From positions 1 through 35,298 of the forward strand of contig JAJRUD010000206.1 of NCBI GenBank assembly GCA_024277995.1: 35,298 nt of DNA, in the 5' to 3' direction. This DNA comes from Chloroflexota bacterium. Lineage in GTDB: Bacteria; Chloroflexota; Anaerolineae; Anaerolineales; E44-bin32. Made by a program: the position numbers and the translations under genes. The notes beneath the pieces are model-generated. The model was given only the letters and a program-made list of their open reading frames with translations, searched no databases and was not told the origin of the DNA. Below, piece after piece: positions 14,097 through 24,135 of the stretch. Each line of letters begins with the position of its first letter. The stretch's first letter is position 1.

Positions 14097-14741
14097 ATGA
14101 CTGCCGGCCCTAAATGGCTCACGCTCTCACAGGCTGCGGCGCTCCTGGGCGTCCACCCGACGACCGTCCGCAGGTGGGCCGACAACGGCCAGCTTCCCAG
14201 CCTACGCACGCCCGGCGGCCACCGGCGCTTCTCGGAAGCCGACCTGCGTTCCTTTTCCCAGCAGCGCGATCGCCTGAAGACCCTGGGCGGCCTCGAGCAT
14301 CTATGGGCCAACGAGGCGCTCGAGAAGGCCCGCTTCAGCCTGCAGAACCTGCAGAGCGACGAGGGGTGGATGGCGAGCTACGGCCCTGAGGAGCGCGAGC
14401 TGATGCGCTTGCTGGGCCGGCGCACACTGGGAGTGATGGTCGAATATGCGCTGCATCCCGATCGGCGTAAGGAGCTCCTGCAGGAAGCCCACGACCTGGC
14501 CTGGTCCTACGCCGAGGGCGCCAGGCGCAAGGGGTTGTCCCTCGTTGACGCGCTGCAGATCGTGCTTTTCTTTCGGGGCATCGTGCTGGACGCAGCCTTC
14601 CAGCTCCCCGATCAGGTCCAGCTCAGACCTGAATCGGCCCGCGGGCTGATGCACGAATTGAACACCGTCCTGAACGCGCTCGAACTCGGTGTGGCTGAAT
14701 GCTACCAGCCCACCGACTCCCTCAGCGCTGCACACACTTAG
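14097..14741 (+). CDS. MerR/excisionase-type regulator with RsbRD_N-like helical domain
   Basis: A 214-residue protein. Residues 6-55 are a MerR/BldC-type helix-turn-helix (WLTLSQAAALLGVHPTTVRR, then WADNGQLPSLRTPGGHRRFS, ending EADLRSF), which binds DNA with a winged helix. Residues about 85-205 are all alpha-helical and resemble the RsbRD N-terminal sensory domain (EEAHDLAWSYAEGARRKGLS-like core, followed by ALQIVLFFR). The likely role is regulating the heme operon that begins 11 bases downstream, with the helical domain sensing a ligand, possibly heme or an intermediate (inference). ATG 14097 follows GGAGGT by seven bases. The regulator shares a transcript with hemA, so autoregulation would also control heme synthesis. 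Confidence 0.85.
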   Translation: MTAGPKWLTLSQAAALLGVHPTTVRRWADNGQLPSLRTPGGHRRFSEADLRSFSQQRDRLKTLGGLEHLWANEALEKARFSLQNLQSDEGWMASYGPEERELMRLLGRRTLGVMVEYALHPDRRKELLQEAHDLAWSYAEGARRKGLSLVDALQIVLFFRGIVLDAAFQLPDQVQLRPESARGLMHELNTVLNALELGVAECYQPTDSLSAAHT

Positions 14742-14752
14742 GGGCCATCGTC

Positions 14753-16075
14753 ATGCATCTTCATTGCCTGGGGCTGAATCACCGCACAACACCCATCACG
14801 CTTCGCGAGCGCCTGGCGCTGGACTCCGCTCAGCGGCGTGCCATGTTGGCCCGCTGTGGCTGCAAGGTGCCGAACTCTTCGGGATCCCTCTCGGAGATTG
14901 TTGTGCTTTCTACCTGCAACCGGATCGAGCTCTACGTCCTCTCCCCCTCCGCCGACCCCAACCCGCTCAAGGACCTGTTGGCGGAGGCCAGTGACGTCCC
15001 GCGGCCCAAACTCTCCCCGCATCTGTATCACATGCTGGACCAGAATGCAGTCGACCACCTGCTGCGCGTGGCCGCCGGGTTGGATTCGATGGTGCTGGGG
15101 GAACCCCAGATCCTGGGCCAGGTGGCCGACGCCTACACAGAATCCCTGCGCCTGGGAGCCGTCGGCCCGGTCCTGTCACGCCTCTTTCAGACCGCAATCC
15201 ACGGCGGAAAGCGCGCCCGCCACGAGACGGCCATCGGCCGCAACCCCGCCACCATCAGCTCCGTGGCTGTGCACCTGATGGCCGAAGTCTTCGAAGATCT
15301 GGCGGGCGCCCACGTGGTGGTCATGGGCGCGGGCGAGATGGGGAAGCTCGCCGTGGAGGCGCTGCGCAAGCGCGGCGTCGCCGAGATCTGTGTCATCAAC
15401 CGCACTGTCGCCCGCGCCAGGGCCTTCGCCGATCGCTGGCAAGCCAGAGCGCGCCCTTTCGAGGCCCTGGACGAAGAGCTGCTATGGGCCGATATCCTCA
15501 TCACCTCCACCGGCGCCCCCCACCCGCTGCTCACCCGCCAGCGCGTGGCGCGGGCCATGCAAGGCCGTCAGAGCCGGCCCATGATCATCATGGACATCGC
15601 GCTGCCGCGTGACGTCGAACCCGAGGTGGCCTCCGTCCCCGGCGTGCAGCTCTACGACCTGGATGATCTCCAACATCGTCTGCACAAGACACTGGGAAGA
15701 CGGCAGAGCGAGGTGCCGCGCGTCGAGGCCATCCTGCAGCAGGAAAGCCAGAATTTCATGTCCTGGTTCGAAGCGCTGGACGTGCGTCCGTTGATCATCG
15801 CCTTGCAGCAGCAGGCCGAGCGGATTCGTCGCAAAGAGATGGAACGCACGCTGCGGCGGCTGCCAGACATCTCGCAAGAGCAGGTGCAACAAATCGAGAC
15901 CCTGACTCGTTCTCTAGTAAAGAAACTCCTCGGCCCTCCCACGGCCCGCCTGCGCGCCGAAGCGCTGAACGGCCACGGCGCTGAGTTCGCCATCGTGGCC
16001 CAGAAGCTCTTCGGGCTGGATGGCATCCCAGCTCGAGCGGACACCGAGAAGATCCACCCGTCGAGGAAAGCATGA
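14753..16075 (+). CDS. hemA: Glutamyl-tRNA reductase (HemA)
   Basis: First committed enzyme of the C5 pathway: NADPH-dependent reduction of glutamyl-tRNA(Glu) to glutamate-1-semialdehyde. The 440 residues contain catalytic Cys55 in LSTCNRIELY, the tRNA/substrate-binding GLDSMVLGEPQILGQV block, the NADPH-binding GAGEMGKLAVEAL motif and the C-terminal dimerisation helices (MERTLRRLPDISQEQVQQIE). Length and order are typical. ATG 14753 is chosen: AGGGG lies eight bases upstream and MHLHCLGLNHRTTP matches the family's first strand. The open frame extends upstream into the regulator gene without a better start. Transcription comes from the regulator gene's promoter. HemA and HemL (at the other end of the operon) pass the labile semialdehyde between them. 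Confidence 0.97.
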   Translation: MHLHCLGLNHRTTPITLRERLALDSAQRRAMLARCGCKVPNSSGSLSEIVVLSTCNRIELYVLSPSADPNPLKDLLAEASDVPRPKLSPHLYHMLDQNAVDHLLRVAAGLDSMVLGEPQILGQVADAYTESLRLGAVGPVLSRLFQTAIHGGKRARHETAIGRNPATISSVAVHLMAEVFEDLAGAHVVVMGAGEMGKLAVEALRKRGVAEICVINRTVARARAFADRWQARARPFEALDEELLWADILITSTGAPHPLLTRQRVARAMQGRQSRPMIIMDIALPRDVEPEVASVPGVQLYDLDDLQHRLHKTLGRRQSEVPRVEAILQQESQNFMSWFEALDVRPLIIALQQQAERIRRKEMERTLRRLPDISQEQVQQIETLTRSLVKKLLGPPTARLRAEALNGHGAEFAIVAQKLFGLDGIPARADTEKIHPSRKA

Positions 16076-16998
16076 GCCAACACCACCCCCTGCTCCCCGT
16101 GATTCTGGCCACCCGCCCCTCGAGACTGGCGCGCTGGCAGACGCAACAGGTGCAGCAAGCTCTGGCACGCGCCTTCCCCGAACGCAGTTTCCAGGTGAGC
16201 ATCTACACCACCGAAGGCGACCGGCGCCTCGACCGCCCCCTGCCGGAGATCGGCGGCAAGGGACTCTTCACGCAGGAGCTGGAGGCGGCCCTCAGGTCCG
16301 GCGATGTCGACATGGCCGTCCACTCCCTGAAGGACCTGCCGCTGGAATCCCCGCCCGGCCTGGTCCTGGCCGCCGTCCTGCTGCGCGCCGACCCGCGCGA
16401 CGCGCTCATCAGCCGTGAGGGACAGACGCTCGCCGAACTCCCTGCGGGCGCCGTGGTGGGCTCTTCCAGCCCCCGGCGCCGGGCGCAATTGCTCGCCCTG
16501 CGCCCCGATCTGGAGGTGCGCTCCCTGCGGGGCAACGTGGAGACCCGCGTCGCCAAGGTGCAGCGCGGCGACTATGATGCCGCGCTGCTGGCCGCGGCCG
16601 GATTGGAGCGCATCGGCCTGGAGGCCCACATCGCCGAGCGATTGCCTCTCTCCGCCATGCTGCCGGCACCCGGCCAGGGGGCTCTGGCCGTCCAATGCCG
16701 GGCCGGGGACGAAGCGGTCATCTCCATGCTGCGCGCGCTCGAGCAGCGCGAGGTGCGATTGGCCGTGGAAGCCGAGCGCGCCTTTCTGGGCGGCCTGGGA
16801 GGCGGCTGCTCCGCTCCGGTCGGCGCACACGCTGAGGTGGTCGACGGCCAGTGCACGCTGCAGGCCGTCGTCGCCGCGCCCGACGGAAGCCGCATCATCC
16901 GCGTCAGCGGCCAGGGCGACGACCCTGCTGCCCTCGGCCGGCGGCTGGCCAGGCAGGCCCTGGAGCTGGGTGCCGAGGAGTATGTACCCCATGAATAG
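16072..16998 (+). CDS. hemC: Hydroxymethylbilane synthase (HemC)
   Basis: Porphobilinogen deaminase joins four porphobilinogen units into the linear tetrapyrrole hydroxymethylbilane. The 308-residue sequence shows ATRPSRLARWQTQQV near the start, IGGKGLFTQELEAAL, VHSLKDLP with the catalytic Asp region and GSSSPRRRAQLLALRPD with substrate-binding arginines. RGNVETR and LPAPGQGALAVQCR follow. Cys246 in LGGGCSAPVGAHA should carry the dipyrromethane cofactor. The ATG overlaps the hemA stop by ATGA, indicating translational coupling. The product is unstable and is used by HemD, encoded next. Confidence 0.97.
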   Translation: MSQHHPLLPVILATRPSRLARWQTQQVQQALARAFPERSFQVSIYTTEGDRRLDRPLPEIGGKGLFTQELEAALRSGDVDMAVHSLKDLPLESPPGLVLAAVLLRADPRDALISREGQTLAELPAGAVVGSSSPRRRAQLLALRPDLEVRSLRGNVETRVAKVQRGDYDAALLAAAGLERIGLEAHIAERLPLSAMLPAPGQGALAVQCRAGDEAVISMLRALEQREVRLAVEAERAFLGGLGGGCSAPVGAHAEVVDGQCTLQAVVAAPDGSRIIRVSGQGDDPAALGRRLARQALELGAEEYVPHE

Positions 16999-17779
16999 TC
17001 CACTGCCGCTGGAGGGCCTGCGCGTGGTGGTCACGCGCCCCAAGGTGCGTGCCGCGGAACTCGTCGCCGGCCTGCGCGCCCGCGGCGCCACGCCCATCCT
17101 CTTCCCCGCCATCGAGATCACCCCCACTAAGGATCTGGAACGCCTGGACCAGGCCCTGGCGGAGTTGCCTGCTTACCAGTGGCTGGTCTTCACCAGCGTC
17201 AACTCCGTGGCGCTCACCTGGCAGCGCATGGCGGCCATCGACCTCGATCCGCAGTCCCACCCCTCATTGCGCGTCGCAGCCATCGGCCCGGCCACGGCCG
17301 CCGCGCTGCGGGAGCGCGGCGTCGAGCCAGATTTCGTCCCTCAGGTCTTCATTGGCGAAAGTGTCGGCCGCGAGCTGCCAGATGCCGCCGGCGCCAGGGT
17401 GCTGCTGCCGCGCGCCGCGGGGGCCCGCCCGGCGCTGCCGCGCATCCTGCGCGCCCGCGGCGCGACGGTTGACGAGATCCCCATCTACCGCGCCGTCGCG
17501 GCAACGCCGAGGCCCGAGTCGCTCGACGACCTGCGACAGGGCGTCGCTGCCCTCACCTTCACCAGCCCCTCCACCGTGCAGCACTTCGTCTTCATCCTGC
17601 GCCACGCGGGCCTGGACCCGCTCGCCCTGCCGGGCGATCCGGTCGTGGCCTGCATCGGGCCGGTGACGACCGCCGCCGCTCAGGGCCACGGCTATCGCGG
17701 CATCATCGAGGCCGAACAGTACACGGCCGAGGGACTGCTGCGGTTGCTGGAAGAGCACTTCACGGAGCACGTCTCATGA
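16991..17779 (+). CDS. hemD: Uroporphyrinogen-III synthase (HemD)
   Basis: Closes hydroxymethylbilane to uroporphyrinogen III with inversion of ring D. The 262-residue length is normal. HemD sequences are variable, but the pattern is clear: [20 protein letters not shown] at the N-terminus, [32 protein letters not shown], and in the second lobe [14 protein letters not shown] and [23 protein letters not shown] 16991 lies inside the hemC end (8-base overlap), with GAGGAG upstream. It overlaps hemB by ATGA. The alternative of a fused methyltransferase-HemD is excluded because only the HemD domain is present. Confidence 0.93.
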
Positions 17780-18831
17780 GCATCACCCGCGAAACCCCCA
17801 CTCCATCGATAGACCCCGCACGGCGCCCGCGGCGCCTGCGCCTGTCGCGCGGCCTGCGCCGCATGGTGCGTGAGACGTGGCTCACGCCGGCCGACCTCAT
17901 CCTGCCTCTCTTCGTGCGCCATGGGGAGAACCTGCGTCGCGAGATCCCCTCCATGCCCGGCGTCTTCCAGTATTCCGCCGATCGCCTGCCAGCCGAGGCC
18001 AGGTCCATCGCCGAGCTGGGCATCCCGGCCGTCATTCTCTTCGGCCTCCCGGCCGAAAAAGACCCCCTCGGCCGGGAGAACTTCGACCCGCAGGGCATCG
18101 TCCAGCAGGCGATCCGCGCCATCAAGAAGGCCGCCCCCGAATTGGTCGTCATCACCGACGTATGTCTTTGCGAGTACACCGACCACGGTCACTGCGGGCT
18201 GATCAACCAGGGCGCCCCTCCGCCCCACCCCCACCTGCCGCAGGGCTACGTGCTCAACGACGAGACGCTGGAGATCCTGGGAAGGGTGGCCGTATCCCAC
18301 GCCGAGGCCGGCGCCGACATTGTGGCGCCCAGCGGCATGCTGGACGGCATGGTGGGCGCCATCCGCCGGGCGCTGGACGCGGCCGACTTCCACCACATCG
18401 CCATCCTCTCCTACGCCGTCAAGTACGCCTCCGCCTTCTACGGTCCCTTCCGCGACGCAGCCGAATCCCCGCCCCGTTTCGGCGACCGGCGGTCGCACCA
18501 GATGGACCCCGCCAACGCTCGCGAGGCCCTGCTCGAGGCGGATCTGGACGTCGCCCAGGGCGCCGACCTGCTGATGGTCAAGCCCGCCCTGCCCTATCTG
18601 GACGTCATCCAGAGCGTGCGTCAGCGCCATCCCGAGATCCCGCTGGCCGCCTACAACGTCAGCGGGGAATACGCCATGCTGAAGGCTGCGGCCGAGAAAG
18701 GATGGCTCGACGAGCGCCGCACAGTCCTGGAACTGCTGACCGGCATCAAGCGCGCCGGCGCCGACCTGATCATCACCTATCACGCCCGGGACGCCGCCGC
18801 CTGGCTCCTGGAGGGGGCACGACCGAAGTAA
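17776..18831 (+). CDS. hemB: Delta-aminolevulinic acid dehydratase (HemB)
   Basis: Porphobilinogen synthase condenses two 5-aminolevulinate molecules. The 351-residue sequence has the two Schiff-base lysines, K216 in [17 protein letters not shown] and K269 in [14 protein letters not shown]. The metal site is the cysteine-rich [14 protein letters not shown] (C130, C132, C140), so this is the zinc-dependent class. The C-terminal block [13 protein letters not shown] is present. It overlaps hemD by ATGA and abuts the radical SAM gene (TAATG). In pathway order HemB acts before HemC, so gene order does not follow reaction order. Confidence 0.97.
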
Positions 18832-18863
18832 TGCACGCAAAGCCACCATACTGCGAGGAAGCC

Positions 18864-20027
18864 ATGCCCTACGACACGTTGAGCCCGAGAGCCGCGGGGG
18901 AGCGCAAATTGCACGACCACCACATGCAGGGCGCCGATTTCGACCAGGCTCCCTTCACCATTGCCTGGGAGGTGACCCGGGCCTGCGCCTTCGCCTGCGT
19001 CCATTGCCGGGCCGACGCGCAGCGCAGGCGTGATCCGCGCGAGCTCACCACCGGGGAAGCCTTCCGTCTCATTGAGCGCTTCAAAGATTTCGGCAACCCC
19101 ATCCTGATCTTCACCGGCGGCGATCCCATGATGCGGCGCGATCTCTTCGACCTGATCGCCTACGCCAGCGAGGTGGGCCTGCGCTGCTCCCTCACGCCCA
19201 CCGCCACCGCCCTGCCCACCGAGGCCCGCCTCCACAAAGCGAAAGCCGCCGGCATCCGGCGCATCGCCCTCAGTCTGGACGCCCCTTCCCCGCAGGTGCA
19301 CGACGGCTTCCGTCAGGTGGAGGGCTCCTGGGAACGGACCATGCGCATCCTGCACAACGCCCACGCCGTCGGCCTGAGCGCCCAGGTGAACACCACCGTC
19401 ACCCGGCACAACATCGACCTGCTCCCGGAGATGGTGCACTTCATCCAGGAGGTGGGCGCCGTGCAGTGGTCGGTCTTCTTCCTGGTGCCCACCGGCCGCG
19501 CCCAGGCGGCGCACATGATCTCACCGCAGGAACACGAGCTGCTCTTCCATTGGCTGTACGACCTCTCGAAGGAGGCCCCCTTCGACATCAAGGCCACCGC
19601 CGCCCCCATGTACCGGCGCGTGGCTGTCGAGCGCCGCAAGGCCGAAGTGCCGGCCGGCAGCGAGGTGACCTTTCAGGGAGCGGGATTCCAATACGCCGAC
19701 GGATTGGACCGCCCCGTCAAGGGCGTCAACGACGGCAAAGGGTTCCTCTTCATCTCCCACCTGGGGGAGATCATGCCCTCCGGCTTCCTGCCGCTGGCGG
19801 CCGGCAACGTGCGCGAGCACGACGTGGTCCAGGTCTATCGCCTACACCCGCTCTTCCGCGACCTGCGCGACCCGAGCAAACTGAAAGGGAAATGCGGCAT
19901 CTGTGTCTATCGCGAGCTGTGTGGTGGTCAGCGCGGGCGCGCCTACGGCGTCACCGGCGACTATCTGGCCCCGGACCCGGCCTGCGCCTATCTCCCTGAG
20001 GCCGTGGCAGACGAGGTGATTTCATGA
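18864..20027 (+). CDS. Radical SAM/SPASM protein, TIGR04053/AhbD-like
   Basis: A 387-residue radical SAM enzyme. The SAM-binding [4Fe-4S] site is C41-x3-C45-x2-C48 (ACAFACVHC), followed by FTGGDPMMRRDLF (GGE-like motif), a LSLDAP strand and a C-terminal SPASM-like cysteine cluster (CGICVYRELCGGQRG and a last Cys in DPACAYLP) for an auxiliary cluster. This matches the TIGR04053 group, related to AhbC/AhbD/NirJ, enzymes that remove acetate or decarboxylate side chains on heme or siroheme precursors. Lying between hemB and hemE, it could do a late heme step such as propionate decarboxylation (inference). ATG 18864 has GAGGAA upstream and is preferred to ATG 18831, which overlaps the hemB stop. 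It overlaps hemE by ATGA. Confidence 0.88.
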   Translation: MPYDTLSPRAAGERKLHDHHMQGADFDQAPFTIAWEVTRACAFACVHCRADAQRRRDPRELTTGEAFRLIERFKDFGNPILIFTGGDPMMRRDLFDLIAYASEVGLRCSLTPTATALPTEARLHKAKAAGIRRIALSLDAPSPQVHDGFRQVEGSWERTMRILHNAHAVGLSAQVNTTVTRHNIDLLPEMVHFIQEVGAVQWSVFFLVPTGRAQAAHMISPQEHELLFHWLYDLSKEAPFDIKATAAPMYRRVAVERRKAEVPAGSEVTFQGAGFQYADGLDRPVKGVNDGKGFLFISHLGEIMPSGFLPLAAGNVREHDVVQVYRLHPLFRDLRDPSKLKGKCGICVYRELCGGQRGRAYGVTGDYLAPDPACAYLPEAVADEVIS

Positions 20028-21160
20028 CGCCGCAACGCACCCCTCCAACCCACCTGATAGACGGCGAAGAAAGCACTCGCCCGGAGGGCCCGGATCCCCG
20101 GCCCGAACCCACCTCGCGCTTCCTGCGCGCCTGCCGGCGCCTGCCAGTCGACCGTATACCCGTGTGGTTGATGCGCCAGGCCGGCCGCTATATGTCGGAG
20201 TACCGCGCCCTGCGCGCCCGGTACTCGCTGCTCGAGATCTGCGCCGAGCCGGAGCTGGCGGCCGAGGTCACCCTGCAGCCGGTGCAGGCCCTGGGCGTCG
20301 ACGCAGCCATCCTCTTTGCCGACATCCTGCTGCCCCTGATCCCCATGGGCGCAGACCTGGCTTTCGTCAAAGGGGAGGGGCCGATCATCTACAATCCGGT
20401 CCGCTCCGCCGGTGACGTCCTGCGCCTGCGGCGCATCGACCCGGAGATTGAGCTGCCTTCCGTCCCAGAGACCATCCGCCTGCTGCGCAAAGAACTGCCG
20501 CCGGAGGTACCCCTCATCGGCTTCGCTGGGGGACCCTTCACCGTGGCTTCGTACCTGGTCGAGGGCGGCCCCACGCGGCACTTCCGAACGGTCAAGGGCC
20601 TGATGTACGAACAGCCCTGGACGTGGCATCGGCTGATGCAGCTCCTGCGCGATATCATCCTGGACTACCTGACGGAGCAGGCCCGAGCGGGGGCGCAGGC
20701 TCTGCAGATCTTCGATAGCTGGGTCGGCGCTCTCAGCCCGGAGGATTACCAGGAGTACGTGCAGCCCCATACCGCCTACCTGATGCGCGGCCTGCGGAAA
20801 ACCGGCGTGCCGGTGATCCATTTCGGCACGGGTACCGCCACACTGCTCGATCTGATGGTTGAAGCCGGCGGAGACGTGCTGGGCCTGGACTGGCGAGTGC
20901 CACTGGACCAGGCCAGGCGGCGCTTTGGCTCGCGCGTCGCCCTGCAGGGCAACCTGGATCCGATCGCCCTCTTCGCCCCCCGCGAGGAGCTGGAGCGCCA
21001 GGTGATGCGCGTGCTGCACCAGGCAGGGCCGGAGCCGGGCTACATCTTCAACCTGGGGCATGGCATTCTGCCGGAAACCCCTGTCGATAACGTGCGCGCC
21101 GTCGTGGAGATGGTCCACACCTACCGGCCGCAAGACGAACAGGAGGCCGGGGATGAGTGA
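20024..21160 (+). CDS. hemE: Uroporphyrinogen decarboxylase (HemE)
   Basis: Decarboxylates the four acetate groups of uroporphyrinogen III to give coproporphyrinogen III. The 378 residues include the substrate-binding RQAGRYM at 51-57, FADILLPL with the catalytic Asp, GFAGGPFTVASYLVEG, IFDSWVGALSPEDYQEYV, and the final NLGHGILPETPVDNVRAVVE. An N-terminal tail of about 30 residues rich in Pro, Glu and Arg is longer than in E. coli. ATG overlaps the radical SAM stop. The stop overlaps the start of the hemH remnant (ATGAGTGA), a sign of past or present coupling. Confidence 0.97.
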   Translation: MTPQRTPPTHLIDGEESTRPEGPDPRPEPTSRFLRACRRLPVDRIPVWLMRQAGRYMSEYRALRARYSLLEICAEPELAAEVTLQPVQALGVDAAILFADILLPLIPMGADLAFVKGEGPIIYNPVRSAGDVLRLRRIDPEIELPSVPETIRLLRKELPPEVPLIGFAGGPFTVASYLVEGGPTRHFRTVKGLMYEQPWTWHRLMQLLRDIILDYLTEQARAGAQALQIFDSWVGALSPEDYQEYVQPHTAYLMRGLRKTGVPVIHFGTGTATLLDLMVEAGGDVLGLDWRVPLDQARRRFGSRVALQGNLDPIALFAPREELERQVMRVLHQAGPEPGYIFNLGHGILPETPVDNVRAVVEMVHTYRPQDEQEAGDE

Positions 21161-21380
21161 GCCATCGATCTACACGGGCGCCGCTCCGGCGGGGGAGCCG
21201 CGGCCCGGCGCGGCGAGCCCACCCGCGCCCATCTTCTGTGCCTTTCCCCTGGTTCCCGTCGGCTTTCTCAGCGAGCACGCCCAGGTCCTGCACGACGTTG
21301 ACACGGCACAGCGCCGCCGTGCGGATGCGGCCGGCGGCCTAGCGGGGCACGCCGCGCCAGACCGGAGAGGGCAGCCATGA
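21153..21380 (+). pseudogene. hemH: Internally deleted ferrochelatase (hemH) remnant
   Basis: A 75-codon frame fills the space between hemE and hemY. Its ATG overlaps the hemE stop and its stop overlaps the hemY ATG, as for a normal operon gene. Residues about 33-50 (PLVPVGFLSEHAQVLHDVD) match the C-terminal ferrochelatase block P-x-G-F-x-x-x-H-x-E-x-L-x-x-x-D, which carries the active-site His and Glu. Here the His is kept but the Glu is Gln. The rest of ferrochelatase, normally over 300 residues including the N-terminal His site, is absent. So it is best read as a gene with a large internal deletion that kept its ends and frame. An assembly collapse or a new small protein are alternatives. 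It cannot insert iron on its own. Confidence 0.7.
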
Positions 21381-22840
21381 GCGCCCCAGCGCACGTTGTG
21401 GTCGTCGGAGGCGGCATCGCCGGCCTGACGGCAGCCTACACCCTGCAAAAGGACGCTCGTGCCCAGGGTCTGCCGCTGCGGATCACACTGCTGGAGGAGC
21501 GCGATCGCTGGGGCGGCAAGATCCTGACCGAGCGTGTCGACGGCTTCGTCATCGAGGGCGGCCCCGACACCTTCGTCTCCACCAAGCCCTGGGCCCTGGC
21601 GCTGTGCCGCGAACTCGGTCTTGAGGGACGCCTGGAGGGGACAGACCCTCAGCGGCGGAAGGTATTCGTGGTGCAGCGTGGGCGGCTGGTGCCCATGCCC
21701 GAGGGGCTGGCGATGATGGTGCCCGCACGGGTTGGCCCCATGCTGCGCACGCGCCTGCTCTCACCGCCGGCCAAGGCGCGCATGGCCCTGGAGCTCTTCC
21801 TGCCTCCGCGCAGGCAGGTTGGCGACGAGAGCCTGGGGGCCTTCATCACCCGCCGCTTCGGTCGCCAGCTCTATGAACGGCTGGTGGAACCCCTGATGAG
21901 CGGCATCTACGCCGGCGACGGCGATCGCCTGAGCCTGCAGTCCACCTTCCCCTACCTGCGGAGCTGGGAGCTGGAGCACGGCAGCGTGGCGCGCGGCGCT
22001 CTGGCCATCAGCCGCAGGCGTACCGCCCCCGCCAAGGACAACGGCCGCCCTTCCTCCGTGTTTCTGACGCCGCGCTCGGGTCTGCAGGAGATCGTGGAAG
22101 CGCTGTTGAGCCGCCTGGAGGGGGCCGACTTGCGCCTGGCGGTCGCCGCGCGGCGGGTGCTGGCTGACAGGCTCGGCTACCGCGTTGAGACCACGCGCGG
22201 CGAAGTGCTCCTGGCCGACGCCGTCGTGGTGGCTGCGCCGGCCTTCGCCGGCGCGCGGCTGCTGCGCGACCTGGACAGCGAGCTCGCCACCTTATTGGAG
22301 GGCATCGAGTACGCCTCCACTGCCACCGTCAGCCTCGCCTACCGCCAGGCCGACCTGCCGCGGCCCTTGGACGGCCACGGCTACGTCATACCGCGCGTCG
22401 AGGGCGGCGCCGCCCTGGCCTGCACCTGGACCTCCTCCAAGTTCCCCCACCGGGCGCCGCAGGGCTACGCCCTGATCCGCGTCTTTCTGGGGCGCGCCGG
22501 CCAGTCCTTGGACCTTTCCACCCCCAACGCCAAACTGGTGTCCATGGCCCAGGAGGAACTGCGCCTCCGGCTGGGCATCGTCGCCAGGCCCATTCTGGTG
22601 CGGGCCAGCCGCTGGCCGCGGGCCATGCCCCAGTACAACCTGGGCCATCCGCAGCGTCTGGCGGCCATCGAACAGCGGCTGGCGCTGCATCAGGGGCTCG
22701 CCCTTGCCGGTGCGGCGCTGCGCGGCGTGGGCATCCCCGACTGCATCCACAGCGGCCAACTGGCCGCAAAGCGCGTCCTGGAAAACCTGTCTCACGTGCG
22801 GCACGACTTGCACCCCATGGATGAGGTTACGACACTATGA
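21377..22840 (+). CDS. hemY: Protoporphyrinogen/coproporphyrinogen oxidase (HemY type)
   Basis: FAD-dependent six-electron porphyrinogen oxidase, 487 residues. The dinucleotide-binding GGGIAG is at 11-16, followed by the acidic end of the second strand (LLEERDRWGGK) and ERVDGFVIEGGPDTFVSTKP, a HemY signature. Further typical blocks are FGRQLYERLVEPLMSGIYAG and, at the C-terminus, GLALAGAALRGVGIPDCIHS, the FAD-binding end. Depending on the substrate it acts as protoporphyrinogen IX oxidase (classical route) or coproporphyrinogen III oxidase (coproporphyrin route). Because no HemN is present here, the latter is possible. The ATG overlaps the hemH-remnant stop, and the stop overlaps the hemL ATG. 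Many genomes label the same gene hemG. Confidence 0.95.
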   Translation: MSAPAHVVVVGGGIAGLTAAYTLQKDARAQGLPLRITLLEERDRWGGKILTERVDGFVIEGGPDTFVSTKPWALALCRELGLEGRLEGTDPQRRKVFVVQRGRLVPMPEGLAMMVPARVGPMLRTRLLSPPAKARMALELFLPPRRQVGDESLGAFITRRFGRQLYERLVEPLMSGIYAGDGDRLSLQSTFPYLRSWELEHGSVARGALAISRRRTAPAKDNGRPSSVFLTPRSGLQEIVEALLSRLEGADLRLAVAARRVLADRLGYRVETTRGEVLLADAVVVAAPAFAGARLLRDLDSELATLLEGIEYASTATVSLAYRQADLPRPLDGHGYVIPRVEGGAALACTWTSSKFPHRAPQGYALIRVFLGRAGQSLDLSTPNAKLVSMAQEELRLRLGIVARPILVRASRWPRAMPQYNLGHPQRLAAIEQRLALHQGLALAGAALRGVGIPDCIHSGQLAAKRVLENLSHVRHDLHPMDEVTTL

Positions 22841-24135
22841 ACACCGAGCGATCGAAAGAACTATTCCTTGAAGCGCAGGACATCCTGCCGGGGGGCGTCG
22901 ATTCGCCCGTGCGCGCCTTTCGCGCCGTCGGCGGCCACCCGCTCTTCATCGCCCGCGGCCAGGGCCCCTACCTGTACGACGTGGACGGCAATCGCTACAT
23001 CGACTACGTGCTCTCCTGGGGCCCGCTGATCCTGGGCCACGCGCACCCGCGCCTCGTCGCCGCGCTCGAACAGACGCTGCACGCGGGGACCTCCTACGGT
23101 GCGCCCTGCGAGCTGGAGATCCAGCTGGCGCGCCTGATCCGCCAGGCCATGCCAGGTGTGGAGATGGTGCGCTTCGTGAACTCCGGGACCGAGGCCACCA
23201 TGAGCGCGCTGCGTCTGGCGCGCGCCTTCACCGGGCGCAAGAAGATCATCAAGTTCGAGGGCTGCTATCACGGCCACGCCGACCTGCTGCTGGTCAAGGC
23301 CGGCTCGGGCGTGGTCACCCTCGGGCTGCCCGATTCGCCGGGCGTGACACCCGGAGCCGTCCAGGATACCCTGGTTGCGCGTTTCAATGACCTGGATTCG
23401 GTGCAGGCCCTGTTCGATACACACCCAGACGACGTCGCGGCCCTGATCGTCGAGCCCGTGGCCGGCAACATGGGCGTGGTCCCGCCCGCGGAAGGGTTCC
23501 TCGCCGGCCTGCGCGAGATGGCCGATTCCTGGGGCGCGCTGCTGATCTTCGATGAGGTGATGACCGGATTCCGCGTCCACCCCGGGGGCGCGCAGGCGCT
23601 GTACGGCGTCAGGCCCGACCTGACCACCCTGGGGAAGGTCATCGGCGGCGGCCTGCCCGTGGGAGCCTACGGTGGGCGCCGAGAGATCATGGAGATGGTT
23701 GCACCGGCGGGATCCGTCTACCAGGCGGGCACGCTCTCCGGCAACCCGCTCGCCATGCGCGCCGGCATCGAGACCCTCGAAGCGCTGCTCGATCCCGGAG
23801 TGTGGGAGGGGATCACGCGCCAGGCGGCACGACTGGAAGCGGGTCTGCGCGCCGCCGCGCTCCGGTTGGACGTGCCGGTCCAGGTGACGCGCGTCGGCAC
23901 CATGTGGAGTGCCTTCTTCCTGGATCAGGAGCCGCGCGATTGGGAAAGCGTGCGCGCCAGCGACACGAAACGCTACGCGGCCTACTTCCAGGAGATGCTG
24001 CGCCGCGGTGTATACCTGGCCCCTTCACAGTTCGAAGCCGGCTTCCTCTCCACAGCCCACAGCGCCGAGGTGATTGACGCCACCCTCCAGGCATCTGAAG
24101 AAGCGCTGCAATCATTGAAGACCCACGCGCCTTGA
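22837..24135 (+). CDS. hemL: Glutamate-1-semialdehyde 2,1-aminomutase (HemL)
   Basis: PLP-dependent aminomutase making 5-aminolevulinate from the HemA product. The 432 residues include LPGGVDSPVRAF at the N-terminus, the phosphate-binding NSGTEATMSALRLARA, a GCYHGHAD block and an FDEVMTGFR strand. The PLP-binding Lys267 is in TLGKVIGGGLPVGAYGG. Class III aminotransferase fold, normal length. The ATG overlaps the hemY stop by ATGA. It is the last gene of the operon; its stop is only eight bases from the stop of the convergent M50 gene, with no terminator between. Confidence 0.97.
   Translation: MNTERSKELFLEAQDILPGGVDSPVRAFRAVGGHPLFIARGQGPYLYDVDGNRYIDYVLSWGPLILGHAHPRLVAALEQTLHAGTSYGAPCELEIQLARLIRQAMPGVEMVRFVNSGTEATMSALRLARAFTGRKKIIKFEGCYHGHADLLLVKAGSGVVTLGLPDSPGVTPGAVQDTLVARFNDLDSVQALFDTHPDDVAALIVEPVAGNMGVVPPAEGFLAGLREMADSWGALLIFDEVMTGFRVHPGGAQALYGVRPDLTTLGKVIGGGLPVGAYGGRREIMEMVAPAGSVYQAGTLSGNPLAMRAGIETLEALLDPGVWEGITRQAARLEAGLRAAALRLDVPVQVTRVGTMWSAFFLDQEPRDWESVRASDTKRYAAYFQEMLRRGVYLAPSQFEAGFLSTAHSAEVIDATLQASEEALQSLKTHAP

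Follow-up and report, generated by a model that had tools for sequence, protein, structure and literature searches.

A 75-codon open frame located between hemE and hemY in the heme operon of an Anaerolineae bacterium (phylum Chloroflexota) is very probably (probability of about 0.82) a non-functional relic of the coproporphyrin ferrochelatase gene (cpfC/hemH) of this operon. The window analyzed is a complete contig of 35,298 bases (C171) from a 3.36 Mb assembly of 272 contigs, estimated to be 86% complete with 4% contamination. The heme genes extend from 14699 to 24135 and are all carried by the + strand. These include hemA (14699-16075; PF05201/PF01488/PF00745), hemC (16072-16998; assigned by similarity and position), hemD (16991-17779; assigned by operon position and similarity to the hemD of relatives) and hemB (17776-18831; NF006762). 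They are followed by a gene encoding an AhbD-like radical SAM/SPASM protein (18780-20027, start codon uncertain), hemE encoding uroporphyrinogen decarboxylase (20024-21160; TIGR01464, 432.6 bits, above cut-off), the 75-codon frame (21153-21380), hemY/cgoX encoding protoporphyrinogen/coproporphyrinogen oxidase (21377-22840; TIGR00562, 297.9 bits, above cut-off) and hemL (22837-24135; TIGR00713, above cut-off). The radical SAM protein differs from the AhbD heme synthase: it scores 354 bits against TIGR04545, under the cut-off of 500, and passes instead the cut-off of TIGR04053 (446 bits versus 395).

As the initial annotation had pointed out, the frame overlaps both neighboring genes by its start and stop codons: its ATG (21153) overlaps the stop codon of hemE (21158-21160) and its TGA (21378-21380) overlaps the ATG of hemY (21377). 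A Shine-Dalgarno-like AGGAGG (21141-21146) can be read 6 nt 5' of this ATG, and neither a promoter nor a terminator was found at the hemE-hemY junction. The similarity to HemH that had been proposed is also borne out. Residues 33-63 match positions 261-291 of PF00762 (17.2 bits, E 0.0027), a score under the curated cut-off of 27 bits for this family, and NCBIfam NF000689 matches the frame with an E value of 8e-4. Among 61 related genomes, the top matches after the frame itself are the C-terminal parts of the full-length hemH of five genomes from the same family (G002, G020, G014, G021 and G009), in each of which the best match is its own full-length hemH. The core of the frame is recognizable in the alignment with the hemH of relatives that had been suggested, with 38-52% identity to these five genes and E values from 2e-7 to 2e-4. 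In four of these genomes, hemE and hemY flank the full-length hemH; in G020, the gene comes after hemE, and the search located no hemY. Since similarity and identical gene position coincide, a chance match is excluded. By these family-level comparisons, the frame descends from the hemH/cpfC of the operon.

Alignment with 21 intact copies indicates that the HemH-like part of the frame is limited to a core of 33 residues (about 31-63; 21243-21341; FPLVPVGFLSEHAQVLHDVDTAQRRRADAAGGL), which aligns with residues ~251-283 of Bacillus subtilis HemH and displays coding-like positional GC (0.88/0.45/0.76). Against a profile of the 21 intact copies, this core scores 18-19 bits, whereas the corresponding segment scores 47-58 bits in each intact copy, these latter scores being somewhat favored since the profile was made from the intact copies. 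Four of the 10 columns that are invariant in the intact copies are altered in the core (I to V, V to A, E to Q and Y to H), and its identity to the hemH copies of the family is 39-52%, whereas these copies share 70-97% identity among themselves. The frame therefore shows residual similarity in a conserved position together with relaxed constraint relative to intact copies, as expected for a relic.

The catalytic residues have not been spared. Gln44 of the frame aligns with E264 of B. subtilis (1ak1 numbering), a Glu in all 21 intact relatives, and the change of the catalytic Glu to Gln had thus been correctly recognized. By contrast, the catalytic His had been described as kept, whereas the His in the SEHAQ motif of the frame aligns with H262 and not with H183. 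The region of H183, which carries TAHSLP or SAHSLP in 21 of 21 intact relatives, is absent from the frame. The catalytic roles of H183 and E264 are those given by Hansson 2007 as cited in PMC9794026. A large loss had been announced (about 250-300 codons), and there is indeed one, of about 240 codons. With 75 amino acids, where a ferrochelatase has ~300 residues in two domains, the product of the frame cannot work as a ferrochelatase.

Furthermore, an internal deletion kept in frame, as initially described, implies that both ends of the gene survive, and this does not fit the observations. The first residues (MSEP) resemble the start of intact HemH (MNEP) and may be retained; the rest of codons 1-30 (21153-21242; positional GC 0.67/0.77/0.83, unlike local genes) is non-homologous and the C-terminal end of HemH is missing as well. 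The GC content at position 2 reaches 0.77 in codons 1-30 and 0.75 in codons 64-75, versus 0.45-0.50 in neighboring genes: the codons flanking the core look non-coding in base composition. No hidden HemH piece was found in the other frames of 21060-21420, and no direct repeat marking a deletion or a join was found at the frame. An inverted repeat flanks the core, and RNA folding of the region is no better than that of shuffled sequences (z +1.57). At 66% GC, about 17% of random 75-codon frames would be free of stop codons, so that the openness of the frame is weak evidence for a function.

The second hemH copy that had been envisaged was not detected: a genome-wide search of the 86%-complete assembly found no match to PF00762. 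HemQ (PF06778), CbiX and AhbA/AhbB (PF17805) are also absent from this genome and were rejected as replacements. No AhbA/B scored above cut-off in this genome and 60 relatives, which excludes the siroheme-dependent (Ahb) route for these 61 genomes. None of the 61 genomes encodes HemN above the curated cut-off, the only homologue, below cut-off, being probably HemW. The genome carries cytochrome c assembly genes and no heme-copper oxidase was seen in it; searches for plasmid and viral features gave nothing useful. HemQ is encoded by 11 of the 61 genomes, all of which also encode HemH. In a careful tree of HemB, the radical SAM protein, HemE, HemY and HemL, the operon is nested with four operons that carry both hemH and hemQ (support 100/99), and a quick tree of 65 rows gives the same nesting among such operons (support 99). 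Because of this position, the loss of both genes would most simply have occurred on the branch of this lineage itself. Among the alternatives put forward by the initial annotation, loss of ferrochelatase by the lineage is the best supported.

These data would be explained by a recent loss, in this lineage, of the final steps of the coproporphyrin pathway (CpfC and HemQ), both together and perhaps simultaneously. The remaining scrap may have been kept open because its start and stop codons pass ribosomes from hemE into hemY, a coupling through a short cistron that the overlaps and the ribosome site suggest; alternatively, too little time may have elapsed since the loss. Iron might now be inserted by another enzyme or by a copy encoded in the 14% of the genome that was not sampled, or else heme might be taken up. 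Some points count against the relic interpretation. At 86% completeness, a second hemH could be missed, and no same-genus sequence was found with which selection could be assessed or the junction confirmed. Moreover, given the coding-like core, the open frame and the good ribosome site, a 75-residue peptide might be translated. Combined with the overlaps with both neighbors, these features would also be compatible with a new functional small protein, for instance a HemH-derived porphyrin-binding or regulatory peptide. However, a similar fragment is found neither in the other 26 genomes of the family nor in 37 hemH-less hemE-hemY junctions, the invariant residues are gone, the flanks look non-coding and open frames of 75 codons are not unusual with such a GC content. 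The tiny-protein role initially suggested therefore finds no support and we consider it very improbable. An error of assembly or binning, in which the hemE-hemY interval would have lost a full hemH (and hemQ) through collapse or a wrong join, is barely more credible. The 272 contigs, the incompleteness and the 4% contamination speak for it. Nevertheless, a collapse would leave coding ends unaltered, whereas invariant residues are altered in the core and neither flank resembles HemH; no direct repeat marks a join, HemQ is missing as well and operons lacking hemH and hemQ recur in relatives.

It is less improbable, although still rather doubtful, that the coproporphyrin ferrochelatase was swapped for a protoporphyrin-type HemH encoded elsewhere, as happened in some relatives, and here outside the sampled part of the genome. 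Even then the fragment would be a relic, so that this proposal is compatible with the relic interpretation and the likelihoods given to the two are not mutually exclusive. Two relatives (loci L105 and L117) in which hemE overlaps or abuts hemY carry a different type of HemH downstream of hemL, 11 of 31 genomes with a hemH-less operon have a PF00762 gene elsewhere, and the cytochrome c assembly genes of this genome suggest that it needs heme. Against the swap, no PF00762 match occurs in the sampled 86% of the genome and, without HemN above cut-off in the 61 genomes, the protoporphyrin route would need an unrecognized step.

A wider pattern emerges in Anaerolineae. The hemY loci of named genomes show two types of operon: type I (hemQ-hemE-hemH-hemY) and type II, which lacks hemQ and hemH and keeps hemE, the AhbD-like radical SAM gene and hemY (loci in the L067-L119 region, for instance L073, L088, L098 and L100). 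The TIGR04053 gene is found in nearly all type II operons whose upstream region is covered and is optional in hemQ-containing ones; this radical SAM protein is a possible substitute for HemQ. Whole-genome searches of 31 type II genomes gave no PF00762 match at all in 20. Assuming that incompleteness hides the gene in one genome out of ten, this count would have a P of about 3e-13; this value treats the genomes as independent, which holds only approximately, and the completeness of the 31 is not given. Heme-copper oxidase is above cut-off in 15 of these 20 genomes, and cytochrome c assembly genes are present in every genome tested. No other hemH relic was found in the hemH-less hemE-hemY junctions (0 of 37), the sole match in the set of 38 (L133) being an intact gene.

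In many relatives, a gap of ~800 bases between hemE and hemY corresponds to two membrane proteins with DUF4491 (PF14898). Numerous heme operons of Anaerolineae encode this pair of small proteins between hemE and hemH or hemY, for instance in L079 (4326-4739), L064 (696-1142 and the next frame) and L067 (5135-6000). Because hemH-containing operons encode them too, these proteins make unconvincing candidates for a chelatase substitute. Downstream of hemL, some of the operons without hemH have a HemH of another kind, the protoporphyrin type (L105, 8760-9770; L117, 8494-9651; L101, 8267-9478; L087, 11916-13187), which suggests a replacement of the coproporphyrin enzyme. Four members of the family (G001, G012, G024 and G022, the latter a single contig) have cytochrome c assembly genes and neither PF00762 nor a close HemY; they are possible heme auxotrophs.

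No paper joining Anaerolineae, heme biosynthesis and ferrochelatase was found in the literature searched. Reports of heme auxotrophs cover many phyla, Chloroflexota among them (PMC11139205), so that heme uptake is a fair alternative. As in these auxotrophs, late heme genes have been lost; however, the genes from hemA to hemY all remain here and the losses are limited to hemH and hemQ, which is not a simple loss of the pathway. A coproporphyrin-dependent pathway with AhbD or HemQ as the last enzyme has also been described (PMC7242693). The present operon resembles it in combining hemE and hemY with an AhbD-like radical SAM gene, but here no ferrochelatase was found to feed the last step and the radical SAM protein belongs to TIGR04053, not to AhbD by cut-off. 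Tentatively, the relic might reflect an Anaerolineae lineage crossing from the CpfC and HemQ pathway to an operon devoid of hemH and hemQ. Other operons of this kind keep hemA to hemY together with an AhbD-like radical SAM gene, and the many genomes among them with heme-copper oxidases but without a known ferrochelatase would imply an iron-inserting enzyme that is not yet recognized. Taken alone, the frame clearly illustrates gene decay in an operon that is otherwise whole, hemH and hemQ being both gone where the closest sampled relatives keep both. It led to related genomes that build porphyrin and encode heme enzymes without a recognized ferrochelatase. Should these genomes make heme, a ferrochelatase family would still await discovery; otherwise, they must import heme even though they produce a porphyrin.
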